IMG/VR virus record: IMGVR_UViG_3300025687_000421
Coordinates: 1-20,803 of that record
Source of the DNA: a virus
Length of the DNA stretch: 20,803 nucleotides
Direction: 5' to 3' (one strand)
Numbering within the stretch: the first letter of the stretch is position 1; each line of letters begins with the position of its first letter. Under the pieces are notes generated by a model that saw nothing but the letters and a program-made list of their open reading frames with translations, was not told the origin of the DNA and did no database searches. Shown one piece after another: positions 3,409-16,987 of this stretch. The translations under genes and the position numbers were made by a program.

Positions 3409-3645
3409 TTATTGTGGTAGTGTTTTTGACTCACCAAGTTTGATTATACCCTCTATAACCGTGTTAATATTACCATTTTCTTCTAGTTTTTCAATACAAG
3501 GTTTCTCTTGTGTAGTCTTTTGATCTTTCTCACATAATGCTTGTTCAGGTTTATCCTTTTCACAAGCATTTACCCAAGTAAAAGCTATTAACATTAGTAA
3601 CACTATTAAGAATATGTAAAGGTATTGTATGAGTATTTTTTTCAT
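3409..3645 (-). CDS. Small exported or membrane-anchored cysteine-containing protein (78 aa)
   Basis: I do not recognise a family. The N-terminus is a clear signal or membrane segment: MKK, then about 20 hydrophobic residues (ILIQYLYIFLIVLLMLIAF), ending TWVNAC at Cys28. VNA|C suits signal peptidase I; it is only a weak lipobox because Asn is at -2. The rest is charged with two more cysteines (38 and 50) and a possible helix NTVIEGIIKLGES. It stands just after the gp23 terminator and just before a tail gene. Possible roles are an inner-membrane or periplasmic accessory, such as a spanin-like or superinfection-exclusion protein, but none is shown. The start has no Shine-Dalgarno; a TAAATA motif ends 5 nt upstream. 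Confidence 0.65.
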   Translation of the reverse strand: MKKILIQYLYIFLIVLLMLIAFTWVNACEKDKPEQALCEKDQKTTQEKPCIEKLEENGNINTVIEGIIKLGESKTLPQ

Positions 3646-3723: not shown

Positions 3724-5067
3724 TTACATTAAGTTCGCAACTTGTACTCGTCTGTAGTATCTGTTGCTGTTAGCAGAACCAACACCGTTGATTGAAGCAG
3801 CACCTGATCCAGCATTTTCAGCAAATGGGTTTGCTTGCATACCGTATCTAGTTTTGAATCCAATCTTAGGTTGGAAAGTGTCCTGACCAACTGCTCTGAC
3901 CATTTGTAGTGGTACATATGGGCAGTAGAAAATACCAGCGTCATATTGAGATGTACCTTTGTAACCTACTACGAAATATTGTTTCGCAGTTGAGTTAGCT
4001 GAGTACGGATCAATGTACACTTTGTATCTTCCGTTTAATACACCAGCGAAAGTATTTCCAGTGTCGTCAACGCTTAAGTTGTTGTTTAAAGCTGGAGCGT
4101 AATCTAATACACCTGCCATTTGTAAAGCACTAGCAACATCTGAAGAAGTGATTAGGATGTTACCTTTTCCTCTTCTTGTTTCTTGTGCGATAGCATTTGC
4201 TTCTCTCTCAACTTGGAACATTAAACCTTTGAATCTTTCAACAGACCATCTTCCGTTTGAGTCTGTATCTAAATCAAAGATACCTGCATTTGTTACGTTA
4301 CCTGTTTGAGCACCAATTTTAGCCACTTGATAAATTGTTCTTACAACTTCTCTATTGATTTCCGCAAGGATTTCAGCAGATAAGATGTTCGCCAATTCAG
4401 TTTCAGCGTCTAATCCGTGGATTGCTTTAAGGTCTTGTGCAAGTTCCATTGTGTATTCTGCTTTAAGAGCTCTCGATTTAGCAGTCACAGTTGATTTCTC
4501 AATTGAGAACGCCATTTCAGCAAAGCTGTTTCCAGAAGAATCACCTAAAGCTTCAGCAGTAGCTGTTGCCATAGCAGAACCAGTTGAATAAGCACCTGCT
4601 GGTGAGTCATTCAATAGTGCTGGGTTTGTACCTGCGTGAGTTGAGTTAGCATCAATACCTGCTACAGTTGAATCTCCAGCTGCGTTTCTAGCAGAGAAGT
4701 CTGTATCAGCTTCATTGAATAAAGCCTCAGTTCCGTTTTGAGAAGCATATTTAGCTCTCATAGCGAAAATTAGACCTGTTGGTCCAGTCATTGGTTGTAC
4801 GCCTGCGATATCGTAAGCGATAAGATTTGGCATTGCTCTTCTTACCAATGAGATCATAATTGGATCCCAATTTTGTACGTAAGAAGCGTCTGTGCTGTTT
4901 TGTGGAGCAGCTTCAGACATAAACGCTCTATCTTCTCTTATAGCTCTTTCTTGGTTTTCCAAGATAACAGCAGTGACCGCATTCCTATAACTATCCGTTA
5001 CTTTTGGGAGTTCTGGATGCTCAAGGACGGGCTGCCATTTTTTTATTAGTTGTTCTGATAAATACAT
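3724..5067 (-). CDS. 23: gp23 major capsid protein (447 aa)
   Basis: HK97-fold major head protein that forms the hexamers of the T4-like shell. Recognised from the N-terminal block SYVQNWDPIMISLVRRAMPN and LIAYDIAGVQPMTGPTGLIF, the middle helix-rich segment with LSAEILAEINREVVRTI, and the C-terminal block DTFQPKIGFKTRYGMQANPF. It is shorter than T4 gp23 (521 aa). T4 gp23 loses an N-terminal propeptide to the gp21 protease after a glutamate. Candidate sites here are FMSE|AAP (after E52) or IRE|D (after E45), inferred from the hydrophobic-x-Glu rule. It is the last gene before the terminator, with a strong RBS AAAGGGAGA, as expected for the most abundant protein. No separate vertex protein gp24 gene is visible. 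Confidence 0.95.
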   Translation of the reverse strand: MYLSEQLIKKWQPVLEHPELPKVTDSYRNAVTAVILENQERAIREDRAFMSEAAPQNSTDASYVQNWDPIMISLVRRAMPNLIAYDIAGVQPMTGPTGLIFAMRAKYASQNGTEALFNEADTDFSARNAAGDSTVAGIDANSTHAGTNPALLNDSPAGAYSTGSAMATATAEALGDSSGNSFAEMAFSIEKSTVTAKSRALKAEYTMELAQDLKAIHGLDAETELANILSAEILAEINREVVRTIYQVAKIGAQTGNVTNAGIFDLDTDSNGRWSVERFKGLMFQVEREANAIAQETRRGKGNILITSSDVASALQMAGVLDYAPALNNNLSVDDTGNTFAGVLNGRYKVYIDPYSANSTAKQYFVVGYKGTSQYDAGIFYCPYVPLQMVRAVGQDTFQPKIGFKTRYGMQANPFAENAGSGAASINGVGSANSNRYYRRVQVANLM

Positions 5068-6310: not shown

Positions 6311-6955
6311 TTACAGTTTTTTTATAAAATCCTCGAATATTTTTGCTTTTTTCTCAGCTAATTCGTGTCTTTTAGTTTTAATTAGTTCCATTTTCCAAGA
6401 TTCTACATCTTGTTCAACAAGAACACCATTGTTCCATACCCACTCTTTGCCTTCCATAATACCTTCTACGAAAGCGTCTGGAGCTGATGGATCTGCAACT
6501 ATGTCGGCAGCAGTAGCTAAATAGAAATCACTCCCTACGTAATTACCACCATTTTTTGATTCTAATGAACCCATACCACGTGAAGAAACGCCTAACTTAG
6601 CGCCTTCATCAATAAGACTTTTTACAATCTTACCATATGGAGTGTCCATTATCTTCGCCTCACCAATAAAGTTTTTTCCCTCTGGATATAGTTTCTTAAT
6701 CATATGCGAAACTCTTTCCAAATTGACAGTTGGTCCGTCTGGATGACCTAGTTCACCAAATGCTCTACTTTTATTGATAAATTCTGCGTTATAACGTTTA
6801 ACTTCTTTTGTTAATACGTCTGACGGATAAATTCTTCCGTTTCTATTTTTGATGTCCGATTGTAAGAATATACCTTTGATTTTATATTCTTTTTTACCGT
6901 TATTTTCTTCTACTAGATAAGTAGCTTCATTAATTTCTTCTCTAATAAGTTTCAT
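6311..6955 (-). CDS. 21: gp21 prohead maturation protease (214 aa)
   Basis: Serine protease of the T4 gp21/herpesvirus-assemblin-like type that cleaves the scaffold and the capsid propeptide inside the prohead. Visible landmarks are FLQSDIKNRNGRIYP (31-44), the catalytic-His segment GELGHPDGPTVNLERVSH with H71, the nucleophile segment LGVSSRGMGS with S124 or S125, and DIVADPSAPDAFV (151-163), where D151 or D155 may complete the site. Length matches T4 gp21 (212 aa). The C-terminal lysine-rich helix (about 190-214) may target it to the core. The RBS is GGGAG within a purine-rich leader 22 nt long behind an exact late box. Confidence 0.93.
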   Translation of the reverse strand: MKLIREEINEATYLVEENNGKKEYKIKGIFLQSDIKNRNGRIYPSDVLTKEVKRYNAEFINKSRAFGELGHPDGPTVNLERVSHMIKKLYPEGKNFIGEAKIMDTPYGKIVKSLIDEGAKLGVSSRGMGSLESKNGGNYVGSDFYLATAADIVADPSAPDAFVEGIMEGKEWVWNNGVLVEQDVESWKMELIKTKRHELAEKKAKIFEDFIKKL

Positions 6956-6977: not shown

Positions 6978-6985
6978 TATTTATA
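6978..6985 (-). promoter_or_regulatory. Late promoter TATAAATA for gp21
   Basis: Exact minus-strand TATAAATA, 2 nt after the stop codon of the 130-aa gene and 22 nt before the gp21 ATG. Confidence 0.78.
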
Positions 6986-6987
6986 AT

Positions 6988-7380
6988 TTATCTAAATTCT
7001 ACAACAATTGTGTAGTTATCTCCTGTAGCAAAATTCTTAGTTGACAATAATACATCACCTGTAGGTGTTGTTGCATTGTTTGTAATTTCATCACCTGCAG
7101 CTCTTAAATCCCAATATCCGTTACCAGATAATAAAACTGCCGTACTATTTGTAGCACCTGCCCATATTAATTCAACTGCTGATTTGTTGTTAGATGTATT
7201 AATAGAAAACCATATTTTAGATATTTTTCTATTACCGTCAGTTGACATAAAAGTTGTTTCAGAAGCGTCAACTTTAGTTACGTTTGTTTCACCAGTACCA
7301 TCCGATAAATTTGTAAGTTTAGTTACAAATTTTACACCAGAAGTATCAGCAATTGTTTGTGTTGTTACTGTATCAGCCAT
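6988..7380 (-). CDS. Small beta-rich virion-type protein, paralogue 3 of a tandem triplet (130 aa)
   Basis: No named family recognised. It shares a layout with the two genes upstream: an N-terminal strand region, then RKISKIWFSI (51-60), AVELIWAG (68-75), AVLLSGNGYWDL (81-92), and a terminal hydrophobic strand after GDVLLST (YTIVVEFR). The common core is I-x-x-I-x-Y/W, then a V/L-x-L/V-x-W/F strand, then L-S-G-x-G-x-Y/W. Small size, Thr/Asn/Gly-rich strands and no helical heptads suggest a compact beta-sandwich such as a capsid decoration protein or a short structural adaptor. Location between the prohead core genes and the gp21 protease supports a head role. Its start forms a TAATG overlap with the 120-aa gene. 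Confidence 0.75.
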   Translation of the reverse strand: MADTVTTQTIADTSGVKFVTKLTNLSDGTGETNVTKVDASETTFMSTDGNRKISKIWFSINTSNNKSAVELIWAGATNSTAVLLSGNGYWDLRAAGDEITNNATTPTGDVLLSTKNFATGDNYTIVVEFR

Positions 7381-7742
7381 TAGTTATATCCCGATTCTTT
7401 ATGTGCCTCTATTACTAAATTATATTTGGCAACATTAGAGTCACTATCTAATAAAATGTTACCAATAACATCTTTAATTTTTTCTTCACCTGGTTTTAAA
7501 CCATAGTTACCACGTCCTGACAATACAACTTTAGTAGTATTATCATTTTCAAAATAAACTGTTACTTCTCCTGTACCTATAATTTCATAAGCAATATTAG
7601 CTATTGAAACTTTAGGTTCACTTGAAGCATTATTTGAATTGACAACATCAACCAATAATTCACCTACTTCTTCACCTACTCCATTTGAGTTAACAATAAT
7701 ATGAAAATTATTATCAACAACTTTAGTAGTTGTTATTGTCAT
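7380..7742 (-). CDS. Small beta-rich virion-type protein, paralogue 2 of a tandem triplet (120 aa)
   Basis: The shared core is VSIANIAYEI (45-54), VTVYFEND (60-67), KVVLSGRGNYGL (71-82) and a C-terminal GNILLDSDSNVAKYNLVIEA (94-113), each matched in order by its neighbours. It is more acidic than the other two. It begins MTITTTKVV, close to MAITTKILS of the gene upstream, which supports duplication. Only 7 nt separate it from the upstream gene and no good Shine-Dalgarno is visible, so it may depend on translational coupling; its own stop overlaps the next start as TAATG. Function unknown; head decoration or internal head protein is the leading idea. Confidence 0.75.
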   Translation of the reverse strand: MTITTTKVVDNNFHIIVNSNGVGEEVGELLVDVVNSNNASSEPKVSIANIAYEIIGTGEVTVYFENDNTTKVVLSGRGNYGLKPGEEKIKDVIGNILLDSDSNVAKYNLVIEAHKESGYN

Positions 7743-7749
7743 AAATTAA

Positions 7750-8124
7750 TTAATCGTTTTCACCCATTCCGATTTTTTGCAATGTTAACAATGCGTAACC
7801 AGTAGCAGATACAGTTACACCTTCAATATCACCGCCTGTAGCAGTTGTATTAGTAGCTGTATTTTTAATTACAGCACCGTAATATATTCCTGCACCTGAC
7901 AAGTTAATTGCGTCAACATCTGCTGATGCACCTTTGAATTGTAATTGTAATCTACCACTTAAACCGTAGTTGATATGAGTAATATGTAATTTAGCGCCGT
8001 TAGCGTGTCCACTCAAACCACTTGCGTCAACAGCCGTAGCTGTAGTAGCAGTGTCATTATCAAAAGTGAGCAATACTTTGGCGTGTGTTTTTGTATCAGA
8101 TAAAATCTTTGTTGTTATAGCCAT
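7750..8124 (-). CDS. Small beta-rich virion-type protein, paralogue 1 of a tandem triplet (124 aa)
   Basis: First of the three similar genes in transcription order. Core motifs are LHITHINYGL (46-55), LQLQFKGA (59-66), DAINLSGAGIYYG (71-83) and a final strand ATGYALLTLQKIG (107-119). It has a good RBS (TAGGAG, 9-10 nt before the ATG), unlike its two partners, so it may be the entry point for ribosomes on this mini-operon. Extra Ala/Thr/Gly content gives loops typical of virion beta proteins. No catalytic motif, signal peptide or membrane segment is seen. Confidence 0.75.
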   Translation of the reverse strand: MAITTKILSDTKTHAKVLLTFDNDTATTATAVDASGLSGHANGAKLHITHINYGLSGRLQLQFKGASADVDAINLSGAGIYYGAVIKNTATNTTATGGDIEGVTVSATGYALLTLQKIGMGEND

Positions 8125-8131
8125 AGTTTCT

Positions 8132-8377
8132 TTACACTCCTAATTGTTCTTTTGTTTCTTTATCAAAGTAATCTTCGATTTCCTTTTTGTTTACATTATG
8201 AAATTCGGCAATTTTTTCTATCGCATTTTCAAAATTGAAAATTAAATTGCCATCATTCTTAACTAATTTAAGAACGTCATTTATTGCCTCTTTCATAATA
8301 GGCGATAAATTATTAAAACTTTCTGTATCTAATAAATAATTTTCTTTTATTAGATTACTGACCTTGTTCAACGTCAC
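8132..8377 (-). CDS. Small prohead-region protein with probable GTG start (81 aa, gp68-like position)
   Basis: The frame is open to an ATG at 8458, but that part lies inside the prohead core gene and encodes Gln/Leu-rich shadow sequence. Convincing protein starts near NLIKENYLLDTESFNNLSP and continues with MKEAINDVLKLVKNDGN and a helical C-terminus ending KEQLGV. I place the start at GTG 8377, with AGAGG 6 nt upstream and a 23-nt overlap with the preceding gene. TTG at 8371 and ATG at 8296 (54 aa) are alternatives, the latter without an RBS. T4 has gene 68 at this location, but no sequence similarity to it is clear to me. A helical, charged composition fits a prohead core component. Confidence 0.55.
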   Translation of the reverse strand: MTLNKVSNLIKENYLLDTESFNNLSPIMKEAINDVLKLVKNDGNLIFNFENAIEKIAEFHNVNKKEIEDYFDKETKEQLGV

Positions 8378-8639
8378 CTGCAACCTCTGGTTCTGGTGTA
8401 GCTGCTGGTTCAGCACTTTGTTGCATATCAGCAGGTACAGTTTCAGGCGAAGGATCAATTACTTCTGGTTTTGGGTCAGAAAAAGAGGCCGCTTGAAATA
8501 AATTAGAAGCCATATCTTGTCTTTTAACTTCTAAAGCGTCGCCTACTTTTGCTCTTAAAGCATCCTTAAATGCTTCACCAGCTTCAGCATTAGCGCCTGT
8601 TGATAATTTATCTATAAAATTTTTTACTTCTTCACTCAT
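8355..8639 (-). CDS. Prohead core protein, gp67-like position (94 aa)
   Basis: Small acidic protein directly after the portal gene, where T4 has the prohead core gene 67. The N-terminal half is helical (MSEEVKNFIDKLSTGANAEA then FKDALRAKVGDALEVKRQDM), a pattern I associate with short prohead core proteins of marine T4-like phages. The C-terminal half is Pro/Glu/Ala-rich and probably disordered, ending DVEQGQ. It would join gp22 inside the prohead and probably be processed by gp21. It has a strong RBS AGGAG and an exact late box only 10 nt before the ATG. Confidence 0.72.
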   Translation of the reverse strand: MSEEVKNFIDKLSTGANAEAGEAFKDALRAKVGDALEVKRQDMASNLFQAASFSDPKPEVIDPSPETVPADMQQSAEPAATPEPEVAGDVEQGQ

Positions 8640-8649
8640 TTTATCTCCT

Positions 8650-8657
8650 TATTTATA
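8650..8657 (-). promoter_or_regulatory. Late promoter TATAAATA fused to the RBS of the prohead core gene
   Basis: Exact minus-strand TATAAATA that contains the TAA stop of the portal gene and is followed at once by AGGAGATAAA and the ATG at 8639. With T4 spacing, transcription would start within or just after the Shine-Dalgarno. Confidence 0.7.
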
Positions 8658-10152
8658 ACGTTTCATTGGAATTTGTTGGGGCTGCAATAATTCCATCGTC
8701 AATTTCTTTCTTAATTTGTTTATCAATATCTTCCATTTCTCTTTCGTCTTGTTTAAGTATATTCTTTCTTACATACTTAACAGAATAGTATTTACCAACA
8801 TAATCTCTCATTTCATTAGCTAATGCTAATCTTTCTCTCATCATTTCTGTGTTTTTTAACTCAGCAAAATGACCATCTTTTAAGAAATCATATTGAATAT
8901 GAGCTGCGATTGTACCCCAATCTTCTTCAGCAATCACTCCTTTTAATACTAATTGTGTTCTTAAAATATCATTAAATAGTTCAGTAAATTTTCTTCTTAA
9001 TCTTTGAACAAATTTAGTAAATTTTAATTCATCTCTAGTAATTTCAGCTGCTCTTCCTAAATTAAATCCTGAAGAGGCTTCCATTCTACTTACAGGCACA
9101 TTTAAACTTCTATAAAGTTTCTTTTGGAAGTATTCAATGTCAGTGATCTCACCTAAGTTTTGACCACCAGGTAAAGTTGTTATTTCAGTTCCTCTACCAC
9201 CTTCTCTACGAGGTAACCAGTAATCTTCTAACATATTCATATAATTACGGTCATCTCTTATTTCACCTGTAGCTGCGTCATAGACAAGTTTGTTTCTATA
9301 TCTTGCCATAACATCTCTTAAATATTGTTCAGCTTTTCCTTTTGGTAAATTACCTACATCAATATAAAAAATTCTTCTTTCTGGTGCTCTAGCAATTCTA
9401 TAAATTACCACAGCGTCTTCAATCATTCTTAACTGATTGACAGGTTTAATTGCCTTATGTAAGTAAGACAACACCATATTTTTATTTTGGTCAATTAGAC
9501 CAGAGTTTGTATATGCAATAGTATCAGAAGCAATTTTAATACCTTGACCTGCTGTTGCATTTGCTACACCTCTTTCATTGTAAACATAATATTCATTAAA
9601 TTCGTTTATTATATCTAACGATCCTTGAGTTCTGTTTTTTCTAACTTCTCTAACTTTTTTTACTTTTCTAGGATCCAGATATTTTAATTCTAACAATCCT
9701 GTTCTAGGATTTTCTCTATCAATAATTTTTTGATAATACATACGACCATCAACATACCATCTTCTAAAGATGTCGTGGCCTTTTGTGTTGAATTGCATTA
9801 ACCTTAATATATAACTAAACTCGTCTTCTATTTTTCTTCTCACTTCATTGCCGAAAGGTAAGTTGTTCAAAACACATCTTACAGGTTCCTTATCACCCTC
9901 AACTACAATAGCTTCATTAACTATATCATCTATAGCTGTGTCGCACTCGGGGTGTAAAGATATTTCTCTATATCTCCTAATAAGATCGGCTTCGTTCTTT
10001 GCTGTACCTTCAATGTCCAAATATTGACCGAAGTAACCGCCTGTAGCGGCGACGGTTGTTGCACCGTCATCCGCTACTGGAATACTAAAGTTTTGTTTTG
10101 GATCATCTTTAGGCTTTACTCTTGTTATTTGAAAACCAAATAATTCTGCCAT
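8653..10152 (-). CDS. 20: gp20 portal vertex protein (499 aa)
   Basis: Dodecameric portal through which DNA enters and leaves the head, and the nucleator of prohead assembly on the inner membrane in T4. Recognisable blocks include LIRRYREISLHPECDTAIDD near residue 65, KYLDPRKVKKVREVRKNRT, RMIEDAVVIYRIARAPERRI, DRNYMNMLEDYWLPRREGGR followed by GTEITTLPGGQNLGEI, and FQKKLYRSLNVPVSRM. Length is near T4 gp20 (524 aa). The N-terminal MAELFGFQITRVKPKDDPKQ is typical of the short variable leader in marine relatives. It has a clean RBS AAGGAGA. Order gp19-gp20-core-gp21 is as in T4. Confidence 0.95.
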   Translation of the reverse strand: MAELFGFQITRVKPKDDPKQNFSIPVADDGATTVAATGGYFGQYLDIEGTAKNEADLIRRYREISLHPECDTAIDDIVNEAIVVEGDKEPVRCVLNNLPFGNEVRRKIEDEFSYILRLMQFNTKGHDIFRRWYVDGRMYYQKIIDRENPRTGLLELKYLDPRKVKKVREVRKNRTQGSLDIINEFNEYYVYNERGVANATAGQGIKIASDTIAYTNSGLIDQNKNMVLSYLHKAIKPVNQLRMIEDAVVIYRIARAPERRIFYIDVGNLPKGKAEQYLRDVMARYRNKLVYDAATGEIRDDRNYMNMLEDYWLPRREGGRGTEITTLPGGQNLGEITDIEYFQKKLYRSLNVPVSRMEASSGFNLGRAAEITRDELKFTKFVQRLRRKFTELFNDILRTQLVLKGVIAEEDWGTIAAHIQYDFLKDGHFAELKNTEMMRERLALANEMRDYVGKYYSVKYVRKNILKQDEREMEDIDKQIKKEIDDGIIAAPTNSNETL

Positions 10153-12772: not shown

Positions 12773-14410
12773 TTAACTTTCGCCTCTTCTAATAGTGACA
12801 GGAGACCATTTTGTACCATACTCATCTATAGTATCTTGTTCTTCTTCAGGCGTTCCATCGTCAATAAACCCAAAAGGCGCCATATCTTGCTCTATTAAAT
12901 TCTCTTGTTCCGCATATAGTTTTGAACGTACATCAACATTAGTTAATTCTTTAAAATATCTTTGATTTGATAACCAACCAAATACCACTAAACAAGTCAT
13001 TAAGTCATCATTACAGCCTTCTTCAGCTTTAAATGAATTGTGTACTCTGGTAAAAGTTGACATCTCCTCTACAATATTAAAATCATTAATTATCATCTTA
13101 TCGGATTCTATAATTGTTTTAATATTAGCACAACCTATTTTTTTAACTTGTTTGGTCATACGAACACCTATTTGACTACCTCTTCCACTAAAACCAGCAC
13201 CTAGTATTTGTCCTGCTCTTCCTTTTTGTACTGTCATCATCATATTATCATACTCTAATTCATAATGAAGACCGTCTGATATTTGAGCACCTAGGTCATT
13301 CACTTCAACCAATATATGTGCGTGATTAAAAGCATTACAAGCCTTTTGTATCATATGAGGAAATAGTAAAGGTTTTACATCACTACTTCTATACTTTGCT
13401 ACAACTCTATAAGGCAATTGTGTAACATCAAATATTATAAAAGCTGAGTAATCTTTTCCTATACCTCTTGCTACGTCAACTGTACAAACATAATGATGAC
13501 CTTTAACTGGTCTTTCAAATACATCTAAACCACCACTTGATTCAATAGCGTCTTTATAAGGTATCATTTTAATTTTAGCAGGTGATATAAGAGTATCTAC
13601 TGATCCTAAAAACTCACACTCAAACTCACTAGCAAATTGTTCTTTACTTGTATTTCTTATTGTAGCTTCTTTCCATTCTTCATCTCTACCTGGCACCTCA
13701 GACCAATGCACTTCTATAGGCAAATAATCATTTTTTTTATTAATTGCATCCATCCAAAGTTTGTAGTACATATTCATTCCGTGTGGTGTAGATACAATAA
13801 TCATTTTTGTTTTTTTACCTGATGATATTGTAGGATAAACTGAACTAAAAAATTGTTCTGCAATGGTGGCTGGTACGAAAGCAAACTCGTCAAGGAATAT
13901 TATGTTATAAGAACCTCCTCGAATTGCACTTGAAGATGTAGCAGCTGCAACCACTTTACTACCATTTTCTAATTCAATATTTCCTTTGTTCCAATTCAAA
14001 ACACCTTGTTGTAAAAATTTTGGTATATTTTCATATGCAAGTTGTAAACGACCTAATATATCTCTAGCAGTATTTGATTTATTGGCTAGTATGGCAATGT
14101 TTGAATTTGGATTAAATAAAGCATAATGTAATAAGTATGAAATAGTTGTTGTTGATTTACCTGATTGTCTAGGAAGTTTACAGATTGTAAATCTATTATC
14201 GTGTATTGTTTGTACTATTCTTTTTTGAAAATCATACATTTTAAATGGTACAAGACCCTCATCTAACGATACTATTCTCACATAGTTTTCCATAAAATAT
14301 AAAGGATCTTTAGCACACTTTTGATATTCTAAAATTTCTTCTTTAGTATATTCGTGCTTAACATTAACCTTTTTTAAATTAGGGTTACCTAAGTAAACTT
14401 CGTTATTCAT
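12773..14410 (-). CDS. 17: gp17 terminase large subunit, packaging ATPase-nuclease (545 aa)
   Basis: Motor that pumps DNA into the prohead and cuts the concatemer. ATPase domain: the Q-motif-like region FKMYDFQKRIV (56-66), Walker A PRQSGKST (80-87) with K85, Walker B NIIFLDEFAF (169-178) with D174 and catalytic E175, and coupling motif VSTPHG (206-211). Nuclease domain, RNase H-like: D312 in CTVDVARGIGKDYSAF, E369/D372 in LVEVNDLGAQ, and D468/D469 in EEGCNDDLMTC, matching the acidic triad of T4 gp17. It is shorter than T4 gp17 (610 aa) at the N-terminus. The start overlaps the end of the upstream dioxygenase gene by 8 nt, with RBS AGGAT. The partner gp16 is unusually separated from it by three accessory genes. 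Confidence 0.96.
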   Translation of the reverse strand: MNNEVYLGNPNLKKVNVKHEYTKEEILEYQKCAKDPLYFMENYVRIVSLDEGLVPFKMYDFQKRIVQTIHDNRFTICKLPRQSGKSTTTISYLLHYALFNPNSNIAILANKSNTARDILGRLQLAYENIPKFLQQGVLNWNKGNIELENGSKVVAAATSSSAIRGGSYNIIFLDEFAFVPATIAEQFFSSVYPTISSGKKTKMIIVSTPHGMNMYYKLWMDAINKKNDYLPIEVHWSEVPGRDEEWKEATIRNTSKEQFASEFECEFLGSVDTLISPAKIKMIPYKDAIESSGGLDVFERPVKGHHYVCTVDVARGIGKDYSAFIIFDVTQLPYRVVAKYRSSDVKPLLFPHMIQKACNAFNHAHILVEVNDLGAQISDGLHYELEYDNMMMTVQKGRAGQILGAGFSGRGSQIGVRMTKQVKKIGCANIKTIIESDKMIINDFNIVEEMSTFTRVHNSFKAEEGCNDDLMTCLVVFGWLSNQRYFKELTNVDVRSKLYAEQENLIEQDMAPFGFIDDGTPEEEQDTIDEYGTKWSPVTIRRGES

Positions 14411-14975
14411 TTTGTTTGTATCCTAACCATCCTGTTATAATGTATTTCTCTTTATTTGCAATTATACCTCTATGTGTATGTGTCCAATCTGAAGGCCATA
14501 TTAGAGTTACACCTTTAACAGCATTCATTTTCATATTTTGATATAAAAATTCAGTACCACCATTTTCAACTGTATTCAAGTATGTCATAAAAGCAAATTG
14601 TCTATTAACTGATTTTATGTTTGTTCTTTCTGAGTGCCAAGTTTTAAATCCACCACCTGGAACATATTTTTGAATATTAAATGTTTCTAATATATTAAAA
14701 GCATCAAACTCTGGAGAAATATTATATCTTACTTTAAATTTTTCAATAACACCATTTAATTCATTTAAATATTTATCAATAGGGTATACATTGCAATTTT
14801 TAGGATCAAAAGACATATCAATACTTTCTTTTGAATTTTTATCTACAATAGCACCTCTTTTTTTATTTAATACTATACCCTCAAAATGAAATGCCTCATT
14901 CTTATTAAAAAAACTTATTAAATCATCACATAAGTTTTCGTCAACCTTATTTCCATATATAAAAGTTTCAATCAT
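14403..14975 (-). CDS. 2OG-Fe(II) dioxygenase-like protein with HxE motif (190 aa)
   Basis: A beta-helix dioxygenase fold is suggested by YVPGGGFKTWHSERTNI, in which H114-x-E116 replaces the usual HxD. It is followed by RQFAFMTYLNTVENGGTEFL and then VKGVTLIWPSDWTHTHRG, with distal His at H166 or H168. The expected Arg after the distal His is not obvious; a Lys in ANKEKYIITGW may bind 2-oxoglutarate. HxE is tolerated in some family members, so activity is likely but not certain. It overlaps gp17 downstream by 8 nt and the ParB-like gene upstream by 8 nt, so all three are probably co-translated. Substrate unknown. Confidence 0.75.
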   Translation of the reverse strand: MIETFIYGNKVDENLCDDLISFFNKNEAFHFEGIVLNKKRGAIVDKNSKESIDMSFDPKNCNVYPIDKYLNELNGVIEKFKVRYNISPEFDAFNILETFNIQKYVPGGGFKTWHSERTNIKSVNRQFAFMTYLNTVENGGTEFLYQNMKMNAVKGVTLIWPSDWTHTHRGIIANKEKYIITGWLGYKQNE

Positions 14976-15264
14976 TTAAAATTATCCCTTCTATGTGAGT
15001 ATATCCTAATTGTATAGCTGCTTGTATTCTTTGACTACCTTTATGCAAACTAAATTGTTTTTCTATATATGGTTGTCCATTTGCACCCATTCTATGAATA
15101 GGAGATATTTGATGTTTGTAAACTTCTACTGGAAAAATCATATCTTCACCGTCTAATAATTCTTTTAAAGGTTTCATTGATTTAATATAAGTTAAGTCAC
15201 TTATTTTAAATGTTTTAATTTTTTTACCTTTAAATTCTGATACATTACACTTTAGTATTTTCAT
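14968..15264 (-). CDS. ParB/sulfiredoxin-like domain protein (98 aa)
   Basis: Small protein resembling the ParB N-terminal (ParB/Srx) fold: FPVEVYKHQISPIHRMGANG (44-63), then LHKGSQRIQAAIQLGYTHIE (73-92), which matches the typical G-x-x-R-x-x-A-A-x-x-L-G-x-x-x-I pattern with G76 and R79. ParB family members bind CTP through this region, and some relatives are nucleases or kinases; which applies here is not known. It is too short to hold the helix-turn-helix and dimerisation domains of a chromosome-partition ParB. It overlaps genes on both sides (20 and 8 nt) and stands between two dioxygenases just before gp17. A role in packaging or in supporting the neighbouring oxygenases would be guesswork. 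Confidence 0.55.
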   Translation of the reverse strand: MKILKCNVSEFKGKKIKTFKISDLTYIKSMKPLKELLDGEDMIFPVEVYKHQISPIHRMGANGQPYIEKQFSLHKGSQRIQAAIQLGYTHIEGIILND

Positions 15265-16045
15265 AAAAATGTTTTATTCTTAACATAAGTGAATTATCAA
15301 AATCTTCTTTATCTCTAATTTTGGATAATGGTTTTTTATCTACTTTCAATCCTTGTACAAAAAATACAATGGTTAATCTATTATTATCACCTGTAATAAA
15401 GTTATTTGCTTTATGAAAATAACGACTATCATATATTATCATTCTATTATAGATATTTTTAACATTAATAGTTTCATAAAATTTATTATTAAAATTTTGT
15501 ATCGCATTTATATAATCAGTATCAGATATTTTTCCATCTCCATAAAATGCTTTTTTTTCTTCATATTGATTGAAAAAACTTATGTCTTTTTCAAATTCTG
15601 GTTTTATTCTAAATAGAGATGTTCCTGAATCAGGATCAGCATTAGGTGTTAAATAAATTACACCTGCAACATCACTACTTGTATCTATATGCACCCAACC
15701 CTCATTTTTAGGACTTTTTTTATCAGTATCAAATGGATCTATTACTGAATAAGTAACAGAACTATCTCTCCAAGAAAACTTTTCATATCTAAGATTAAAA
15801 TATGTAGATAAAGCTTTTAAAATTAATGTTGTAGAAAAATGACTATCTATTGTATGTAAAGGTGGAGACCTATAACCAGGAAATTGACCCTCTAAAGTTT
15901 TTTGCATAGGCAAATCATTTGCCCATTTTCTTATAATATCAGGTTCTGAAAAAAAGTTATCTATAACAGCTGGAAAAAATTCAGCACTTTCATTTATATT
16001 TTTTTCAGTTGGATTGTGTTCATAACTATTTTTCATCTTCATCAT
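15245..16045 (-). CDS. DUF6445-like 2OG-Fe(II) dioxygenase (266 aa)
   Basis: Layout resembles the DUF6445 family, proteins with a dioxygenase-like fold: FFPAVIDNFFSEPDIIRKWA near the start, FPGYRSPPLHTID (55-67), GWVHIDTSSDVAGVIYLTPN with H119-x-D121, SGTSLFRI, then NRMIIYDSRYFHKANNF with distal H211 and R223 in NNRLTIVFFV. All four expected active-site residues are present. The first ATG (16045) lies inside the gp16 gene and gives a 20-nt overlap; Met at 16042 and 16036 are also possible, and no clear RBS distinguishes them. The gene is somewhat more AT-rich and Asn/Lys/Ile-rich than the structural genes beside it, which fits later acquisition. Confidence 0.72.
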   Translation of the reverse strand: MMKMKNSYEHNPTEKNINESAEFFPAVIDNFFSEPDIIRKWANDLPMQKTLEGQFPGYRSPPLHTIDSHFSTTLILKALSTYFNLRYEKFSWRDSSVTYSVIDPFDTDKKSPKNEGWVHIDTSSDVAGVIYLTPNADPDSGTSLFRIKPEFEKDISFFNQYEEKKAFYGDGKISDTDYINAIQNFNNKFYETINVKNIYNRMIIYDSRYFHKANNFITGDNNRLTIVFFVQGLKVDKKPLSKIRDKEDFDNSLMLRIKHFYENTKV

Positions 16046-16459: not shown

Positions 16460-16467
16460 TATTTATC
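16460..16467 (-). promoter_or_regulatory. Late-promoter-like box GATAAATA, 5 nt before the gp16 ATG
   Basis: One mismatch from TATAAATA; it includes the TAA stop of the upstream dioxygenase gene and is followed by GCATT and the ATG at 16454. Chance overlap of a stop codon with A/T-rich sequence is possible, but the 5-nt spacing repeats elsewhere. Confidence 0.5.
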
Positions 16468-16987
16468 TAAATGTATATACTGCTACCAATCTTCTACCTT
16501 TTTCGGGCAAATAAGCATAATGATCTTTATGACCAAAACATACACCTAAAAACTTTTTTGGTTGTGTTGTTTTAAAAATTGTTTTATCATCATTTAATAT
16601 TACTGTAGAACCACCTTCAAAATCATTTAAATATATTAATAATTGATTGTGTGGAAAATTATGATCTTTATGTATTTGACTTTTTTCTAAACCAATATTC
16701 ATTGTAAGGTTAACACTAATTCTTAAAATCTCTTTATATTCTATATTATGTTTTTTTGTAAAACAATTTAACATCTCAGAAAAAATTTCATATGCACTAG
16801 AATTTATACCATCATTATCATTTCTATCTTCAGGTCTAATTAATACGTTATGTACTAAAAAACCTAAATCATCATTTGTAACTGCTGAGGAGTTCCAATA
16901 AAAAGGAAATTTATCTGTTAGTATAACACTATCAATAAATCGTTTATGACCATCTTCTAAAAAATTATCATCTTCAATATACATCAT
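16463..16987 (-). CDS. 2OG-Fe(II) dioxygenase-like protein (174 aa)
   Basis: H106-x-D108 (QIHKDHNFPHNQLLIYLNDF) followed by EGGSTVILND is the first iron-binding half of the fold. PKKFLGVCFGHKDHYAYLPE supplies the distal His (H156, or H153) and GRRLVAVYTF supplies R165/R166 for 2-oxoglutarate. The N-terminal half (1-85) is variable and has no recognisable domain. It lies between gp15 and gp16, where T4 has no extra gene. Either Met1 (16987) or Met2 (16984) may be the start; there is no Shine-Dalgarno, and an exact TATAAATA ends 6 nt before Met1. Expression is therefore probably late, alongside packaging genes. Confidence 0.75.
   Translation of the reverse strand: MMYIEDDNFLEDGHKRFIDSVILTDKFPFYWNSSAVTNDDLGFLVHNVLIRPEDRNDNDGINSSAYEIFSEMLNCFTKKHNIEYKEILRISVNLTMNIGLEKSQIHKDHNFPHNQLLIYLNDFEGGSTVILNDDKTIFKTTQPKKFLGVCFGHKDHYAYLPEKGRRLVAVYTFR

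Follow-up and report, generated by a model that had tools for sequence, protein, structure and literature searches.

A cassette of small paralogous proteins in the head operon of a T4-like virus: candidates for head decoration with an exchangeable first component

Genes and signals between the portal and protease genes

The DNA analysed here, a stretch of 20,803 nt (the window), is a head and tail gene block on the minus strand of a T4-like pelagimyophage close to the Pelagibacter phages Mosig EXVC030M and HTVC008M (Kyanoviridae), and these relatives indicate that the host probably belongs to the ocean's commonest bacteria. In the direction of transcription, the head genes comprise the gene 20 portal (8653..10152; PHROG 213, E-value 4e-215), a 94-aa ORF in the position of gene 67 (8355..8639; weak match to PHROG 2088, E-value 0.006), an ORF of about 79 aa from a TTG start in the position of gene 68 (8132..8371; homologues of 79-80 aa), the genes for proteins A, B and C, the gene 21 prohead protease (6311..6955; PHROG 207, E-value 8e-80; Pfam Peptidase_S77, E-value 1.5e-32), the gene 22 scaffold and the gene 23 major capsid protein (3724..5067; PHROG 138, E-value 6.5e-169). 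The 67 and 68 identities, and with them the prohead core assignment of the 94-aa product, are given by position. In T4, the interval between genes 20 and 21 holds 67 and 68 alone. Here it also contains three adjacent minus-strand ORFs of 130, 120 and 124 aa, present exactly as the original prediction had claimed; transcription, however, runs from the 124-aa gene to the 130-aa gene, which corrects the order of its listing. We refer to them as A (7750..8124), B (7380..7742) and C (6988..7380). All three were recognised from their ORFs, homologues and paralogy, and A and C also from AlphaFold2 models. No RNA families or tRNAs were found within the window. Directly after gene 23 lies a 78-aa ORF (3409-3645, minus strand) with a hydrophobic N-terminal stretch and several cysteines. 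Judged by sequence alone, genes resembling Fe(II)/2-oxoglutarate oxygenases or prolyl hydroxylases (263-940, 949-1710, 1724-2314, 14403-14975, 15245-16045 and 16463-16987, minus strand) appear dispersed among the window's head and tail genes.

The T4-type late promoter -10 motif TATAAATA is found on the minus strand directly upstream of the 67-position ORF (8650..8657) and again between C and gene 21 (6978..6985), and a scan of the window detected no exact copy between these two sites. The window has seven exact matches, every one of them on the coding strand and just upstream of a gene; seven is not unusual against the 5.5 expected by chance, and it is the one-sided strand and placement, rather than the count, that carry a suggestive signal. 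From this placement, A, B and C would be made late, in a unit starting with the 67-position ORF, and gene 21 could be transcribed separately from the 6978-6985 site. Promoter detection methods for cyanomyophages reportedly performed poorly in pelagimyophages (PMC7029224), and TATAAATA may be usable as a promoter motif in this group.

Regarding translation, A is preceded by a Shine-Dalgarno-like AGGAG (8137..8141, minus strand) about 12 nt ahead of its ATG, no Shine-Dalgarno sequence precedes B, and the start of C overlaps the stop of B (TAATG). Of 124 B-C junctions in relatives, 108 show an overlap of 1 or 8 nt, which supports translational coupling between the two. The proposal that only the first gene has a good ribosome-binding site and that the others are coupled to it agrees with the signals of A and B and with the B-C overlap, but a Shine-Dalgarno-like sequence precedes C in 183 of 243 relatives.

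Paralogy and predicted fold of A, B and C

Each of the three proteins has at least 80 relatives in viral contigs, mostly at 70-90% identity, and C alone has 513 in IMG/VR. Median dN/dS against relatives was 0.118 for C, 0.144 for B and 0.138 for A, compared with 0.14 for genes 20 and 23, so that the values of the three genes (0.12-0.14) resemble those of portal, capsid and tail-tube genes. Given the many relatives and these ratios, we conclude that A, B and C are real genes.

The shared motifs that had been pointed out in the three products are present in the order claimed in A (ITHINY, LQLQF, LSGAGIY), B (IANIAY, VTVYF, LSGRGNY) and C (ISKIWF, VELIW, LSGNGYW), except that strand one of C ends in F where Y or W was claimed. 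To compare whole families, we used profiles built from 36 aligned sequences of C, 29 of B and 15 of A. In hhalign comparisons, C and B matched at 97.3% (E-value 2e-11), C and A at 96.9% (1e-10) and B and A at 96.3% (2e-9), each pair being collinear from end to end across about 115 columns. As controls we used D and E, which are likewise small and encoded at the same locus in relatives; they scored 0.1-0.4% against A, B and C. The suggested paralogy of A, B and C is thus upheld, with probabilities of 96-97% and E-values of 1e-9 to 1e-11 against less than 0.5% for the controls; for the same reason, D and E are not supported as further paralogues. Scans of A, B and C against Pfam, PHROGs and NCBIfam returned chance-level matches alone and no family with a function, PDB sequence searches likewise gave chance matches alone, and tblastn with A matched no phage record.

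AlphaFold2 predicted a single jelly-roll-like beta-sandwich for both A (pLDDT 86.5, pTM 0.82) and C (pLDDT 88.9, pTM 0.83), with a similar succession of strands when the models were compared without direct superposition. Each input was the joint alignment of all three families, from which the row of a named phage record (L004) had been dropped; a joint alignment could draw the models together, and their agreement should be read as support rather than independent proof. Monomer prediction is consistent with a similar fold for A and C, the two proteins that it covered. Both models match the same viral predicted structures with query-normalised TM-scores of 0.72-0.84, the common matches being A0A6J5KR59, A0A6J5T4N4, A0A6J5KI81, A0A6J5PNQ9 and A0A6J7VP37, all uncharacterised Caudovirales proteins. 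Among solved structures, the best matches were beta-sandwiches of many kinds: A matched the STIV turret (Z 8.2), the HFTV1 turret (7.2) and Ena2A (7.2), and C matched Ena2A (7.4), CBM29 (6.9), the HFTV1 turret (6.3), 7eel_H (6.1) and 7dn2_1 (6.0). Z scores of 6-8 lie in a common-fold range in which cupins, CBM29 and Ena fibres score equally, and the models accordingly point to a general fold and not to a family. A reading of the proteins as cupins or other enzymes was rejected, as cupins have conserved metal-binding histidines and no histidine occurs among the invariant columns of the A, B and C alignments.

A cassette with an exchangeable first slot

The original prediction had envisaged a three-part complex of fixed stoichiometry and proposed a search for the same triplet in other phages. 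We examined 260 contigs that carry both a 67/68 anchor and gene 21, most of which had come from searches with A, B or C, which biases the frequencies. The usual order opens with one first-slot protein, which is A or one of the unrelated proteins D (about 83 aa) and E (about 84 aa); B follows or is missing, and C comes next. The commonest arrangements were A-C (85 contigs), D-B-C (69), E-B-C (28) and A-B-C with variants (25), followed by E-C (12), D-C (9), A without the others (8, checked separately), D without the others (4), loci with no member (4) and rarer forms. The triplet does occur in other phages, but as a minority form (25 of 260) and not as a fixed unit, and with other combinations this frequent the fixed three-part complex was rejected. 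C, by contrast, was the last jelly roll in all 243 loci carrying it.

In a second census anchored on gene 21 alone (60 loci), 23 loci had A, 31 had D or E, one had both and seven had neither; A and D/E exclude each other (Fisher p 2e-9, a statistic that ignores relatedness). A tree of 103 gene 21 sequences requires at least 18 changes of the first slot among A, D and E, compared with a mean of 39 after shuffling, and 12 changes between A and D/E. The first slot is hence inherited yet repeatedly exchanged, and this exchangeability suggests a common task or a common place for A, D and E. The cassette is absent from the cyanophages S-RSM4 and ACG-2014f and from Sinorhizobium phage phiM9, which have one or two short ORFs there, and two more distant marine relatives (L343 and L350) have the 67-position ORF alone in the interval.

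Other genes were also seen within the cassette. In L087 and L145, a 2OG-oxygenase-like gene, again judged by sequence alone, separates C from gene 21. Inserted DNA that separates B from C (L315:1188-3431, also in L319) encodes a 344-aa lipoprotein together with small secreted or membrane proteins; the L315 lipoprotein looks like an amino-acid-binding transporter component (AapJ-like), which would place host-type transport genes in a head operon. Five contigs (L340, L341, L344, L346 and L353) have a K/D/E-rich protein of 137-146 aa between A and C, with a dockerin/EF-hand-like loop (Dockerin_1, E-value 0.006, below the cut-off).

In five contigs (L075, L308, L309, L311 and L337), E is fused to a LamG-like domain. 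The fused domain matches Laminin_G_3 with E-values of 2e-5 to 3e-3, below Pfam's curated cut-off, and the fusions match PHROG 10356, 'virion structural protein', with E-values of 1e-13 to 3e-15. Homologues of C also extend beyond T4-like phages: they occur in a non-T4 group, in the spring-water phage record MW202796 and in 53 contigs related to it. In the four loci of this kind that we read closely (L004, L382, L411 and L418), one or two genes separate the homologue from the major capsid gene upstream of it, and tail- or fibre-like genes come next downstream of it in the non-T4 phages. The window's C matched L004 by tblastn with an E-value of 0.01, which is weak alone, but the homology is firmer through HTVC008M, whose C was matched by the L004 protein with an E-value of 1e-4. 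These two matches are independent of the 99.3% match of profile A1 to L411, a value helped by the presence of L411's relative L004 inside the profile.

Candidate head decoration proteins and their known counterparts

Considering these data together, we favour, with moderate confidence, an interpretation of A, B and C as proteins that decorate the outer capsid, the first component being exchangeable. As paralogous single-jelly-roll-like proteins produced late alongside the head proteins, they would bind the outside of the mature gp23 capsid as cement or turret-base proteins, presumably at the gp23 hexamer centre or three-fold site, and serve a stabilising or adhesive purpose. C, the near-constant component, would be the best candidate for the anchor and B an optional paralogue, while the first slot would swap A for the unrelated D or E; via E, some phages could put a LamG-like lectin domain in this slot, presumably on the head surface. 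We infer virion presence, outside location, oligomeric state, binding site and purpose from several observations that favour decoration. The genes lie in a head gene module, in a unit with a late-promoter motif upstream, between core genes and gene 21; the models of A and C are small, compact and beta-rich, and their nearest solved structures include virion surface proteins; cassette members are replaced or absent in related phages. Decoration is favoured as well by the C homologue shortly after the major capsid gene in non-T4 phages, by the co-occurring LamG-like fusions of E with their virion structural match, and by purifying selection as strong as on core head genes. The original case for decoration, made from location and composition, thus stands as the best available reading, given the late head operon, the low charge and the beta fold of A and C. 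It is weakened by the placement of A, B and C among inner-core genes instead of adjoining gene 23, by structural scores in the common-fold range, by the lack of a functional family match and by a LamG similarity below cut-off. A tentative extension, which we hold to be unlikely, would turn the cassette into a multi-part head spike, in which C, alone or with B, forms a jelly-roll base seated on the gp23 lattice, and A, D, E or the E-lectin fusion is plugged into the first slot and swapped between lineages to alter head-surface adhesion.

The same modules would also suit virion proteins located elsewhere, such as components of a neck, collar, whisker or fibre base close to the portal or tail. 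Fibres and baseplates commonly contain jelly-roll and lectin-like modules, pelagimyophages possess carbohydrate-binding structural proteins of unknown place (PMC7029224), and the non-T4 homologues have their tail- or fibre-like neighbours. We nevertheless judge this location improbable, since the cassette of the T4-like phages lies within the block of head-core genes, a long way from those for neck and fibres, and C is conserved at about 81% (median), like gp23, which is unusual for adhesins. Still less probable is that A, B and C are internal head proteins, either core parts or packaged proteins delivered into the host as are the T4 internal proteins. Their genes probably share a transcript with the 67/68-position core genes and lie beside the protease gene, but the DEKR fraction of the three proteins is 0.16-0.24, compared with 0.30-0.40 in core proteins, and the predicted beta-sandwiches of A and C are not those of charged core proteins. 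They have no N-terminal propeptide with the gp21 cleavage motif L/I-x-E (PMC9026906), which reaches at most 27% in any column of A or B and 67% in C, there near the end of the last strand. Low charge and the lack of a conserved gp21 site outside the last strand of C therefore disfavour an inner role, as do the lectin-like domain that the linked E can bear and the homologue that phages with another type of head carry beside their major capsid gene. Least probable of all, a non-virion late accessory role, as assembly helpers or host-acting proteins, would fit the absence of any function by similarity and the unrelated cargo that the interval also takes (the L315 lipoprotein, the L087 oxygenase-like gene), but C stays next to gene 21 across large divergence with dN/dS equal to that of head genes, most slot variants are small and look beta-rich, and the long E forms match a virion structural family.

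Pelagimyophages occur widely in the ocean, and we know of no solved structure of a pelagimyophage head. If decoration is correct, likely outer head proteins of these phages would be identified, several decoration proteins would have arisen by gene duplication, and a head operon that is conserved in other respects would contain a one-position exchange site, with a lectin-bearing version among those exchanged.

Of the solved structures, the best score for A was to the jelly roll of the STIV turret protein C381 (4ind; Z 8.2 over 98 residues, rmsd 3.0), which differs in being a three-jelly-roll protein of an archaeal virus of another capsid lineage, and the similarity probably reflects just the shared general fold. 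The HFTV1 turret (PDB 8qpg chain TD, from its length the turret base protein gp30) is, like A and C, small and single-domain. Across 91-95 residues it scored Z 7.2 against A and 6.3 against C, with 14-15% identity; these scores tie with Ena, PirA and CBM29 and are not clearly above unrelated jelly rolls. As a precedent for the proposed binding, the turret base forms a hexamer seated on the capsid hexamer at the head surface (PMC12494034). Two chains taken from their length as cement proteins, 7eel_H of cyanophage Pam1 and 7dn2_1 of Helicobacter phage KHP30, are comparable to C in size and beta-sandwich (Z 6.0-6.1) at 10-12% identity, without demonstrated sequence relation. The Pam1 and KHP30 cement proteins, a second precedent, are trimeric, bind outer three-fold sites and have a fold called Ig-like (PMC9698820). 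T4 Soc and Hoc, to which the proteins had been likened, could be analogues only in function, in decorating the outside of a gp23 capsid. The fold of Soc is a beta-tadpole (PMC9698820), and neither Pfam nor PDB sequence searches gave a meaningful Soc or Hoc match to A, B or C, although absence from such a list is not proof.

The closest counterparts are found in the two cultured phages. We found no published virion proteomics, structure or description of these proteins in a literature search, and the members in both genomes, neither of which has the full A-B-C, are all annotated 'hypothetical protein'. Mosig EXVC030M encodes E-B-C between portal and protease (Mosig_00039/00040/00041; C 83% and B 41% identical), HTVC008M encodes a divergent A and a C of 50% identity in the same interval (gp086/gp087), and both thereby offer concrete gene targets for testing.
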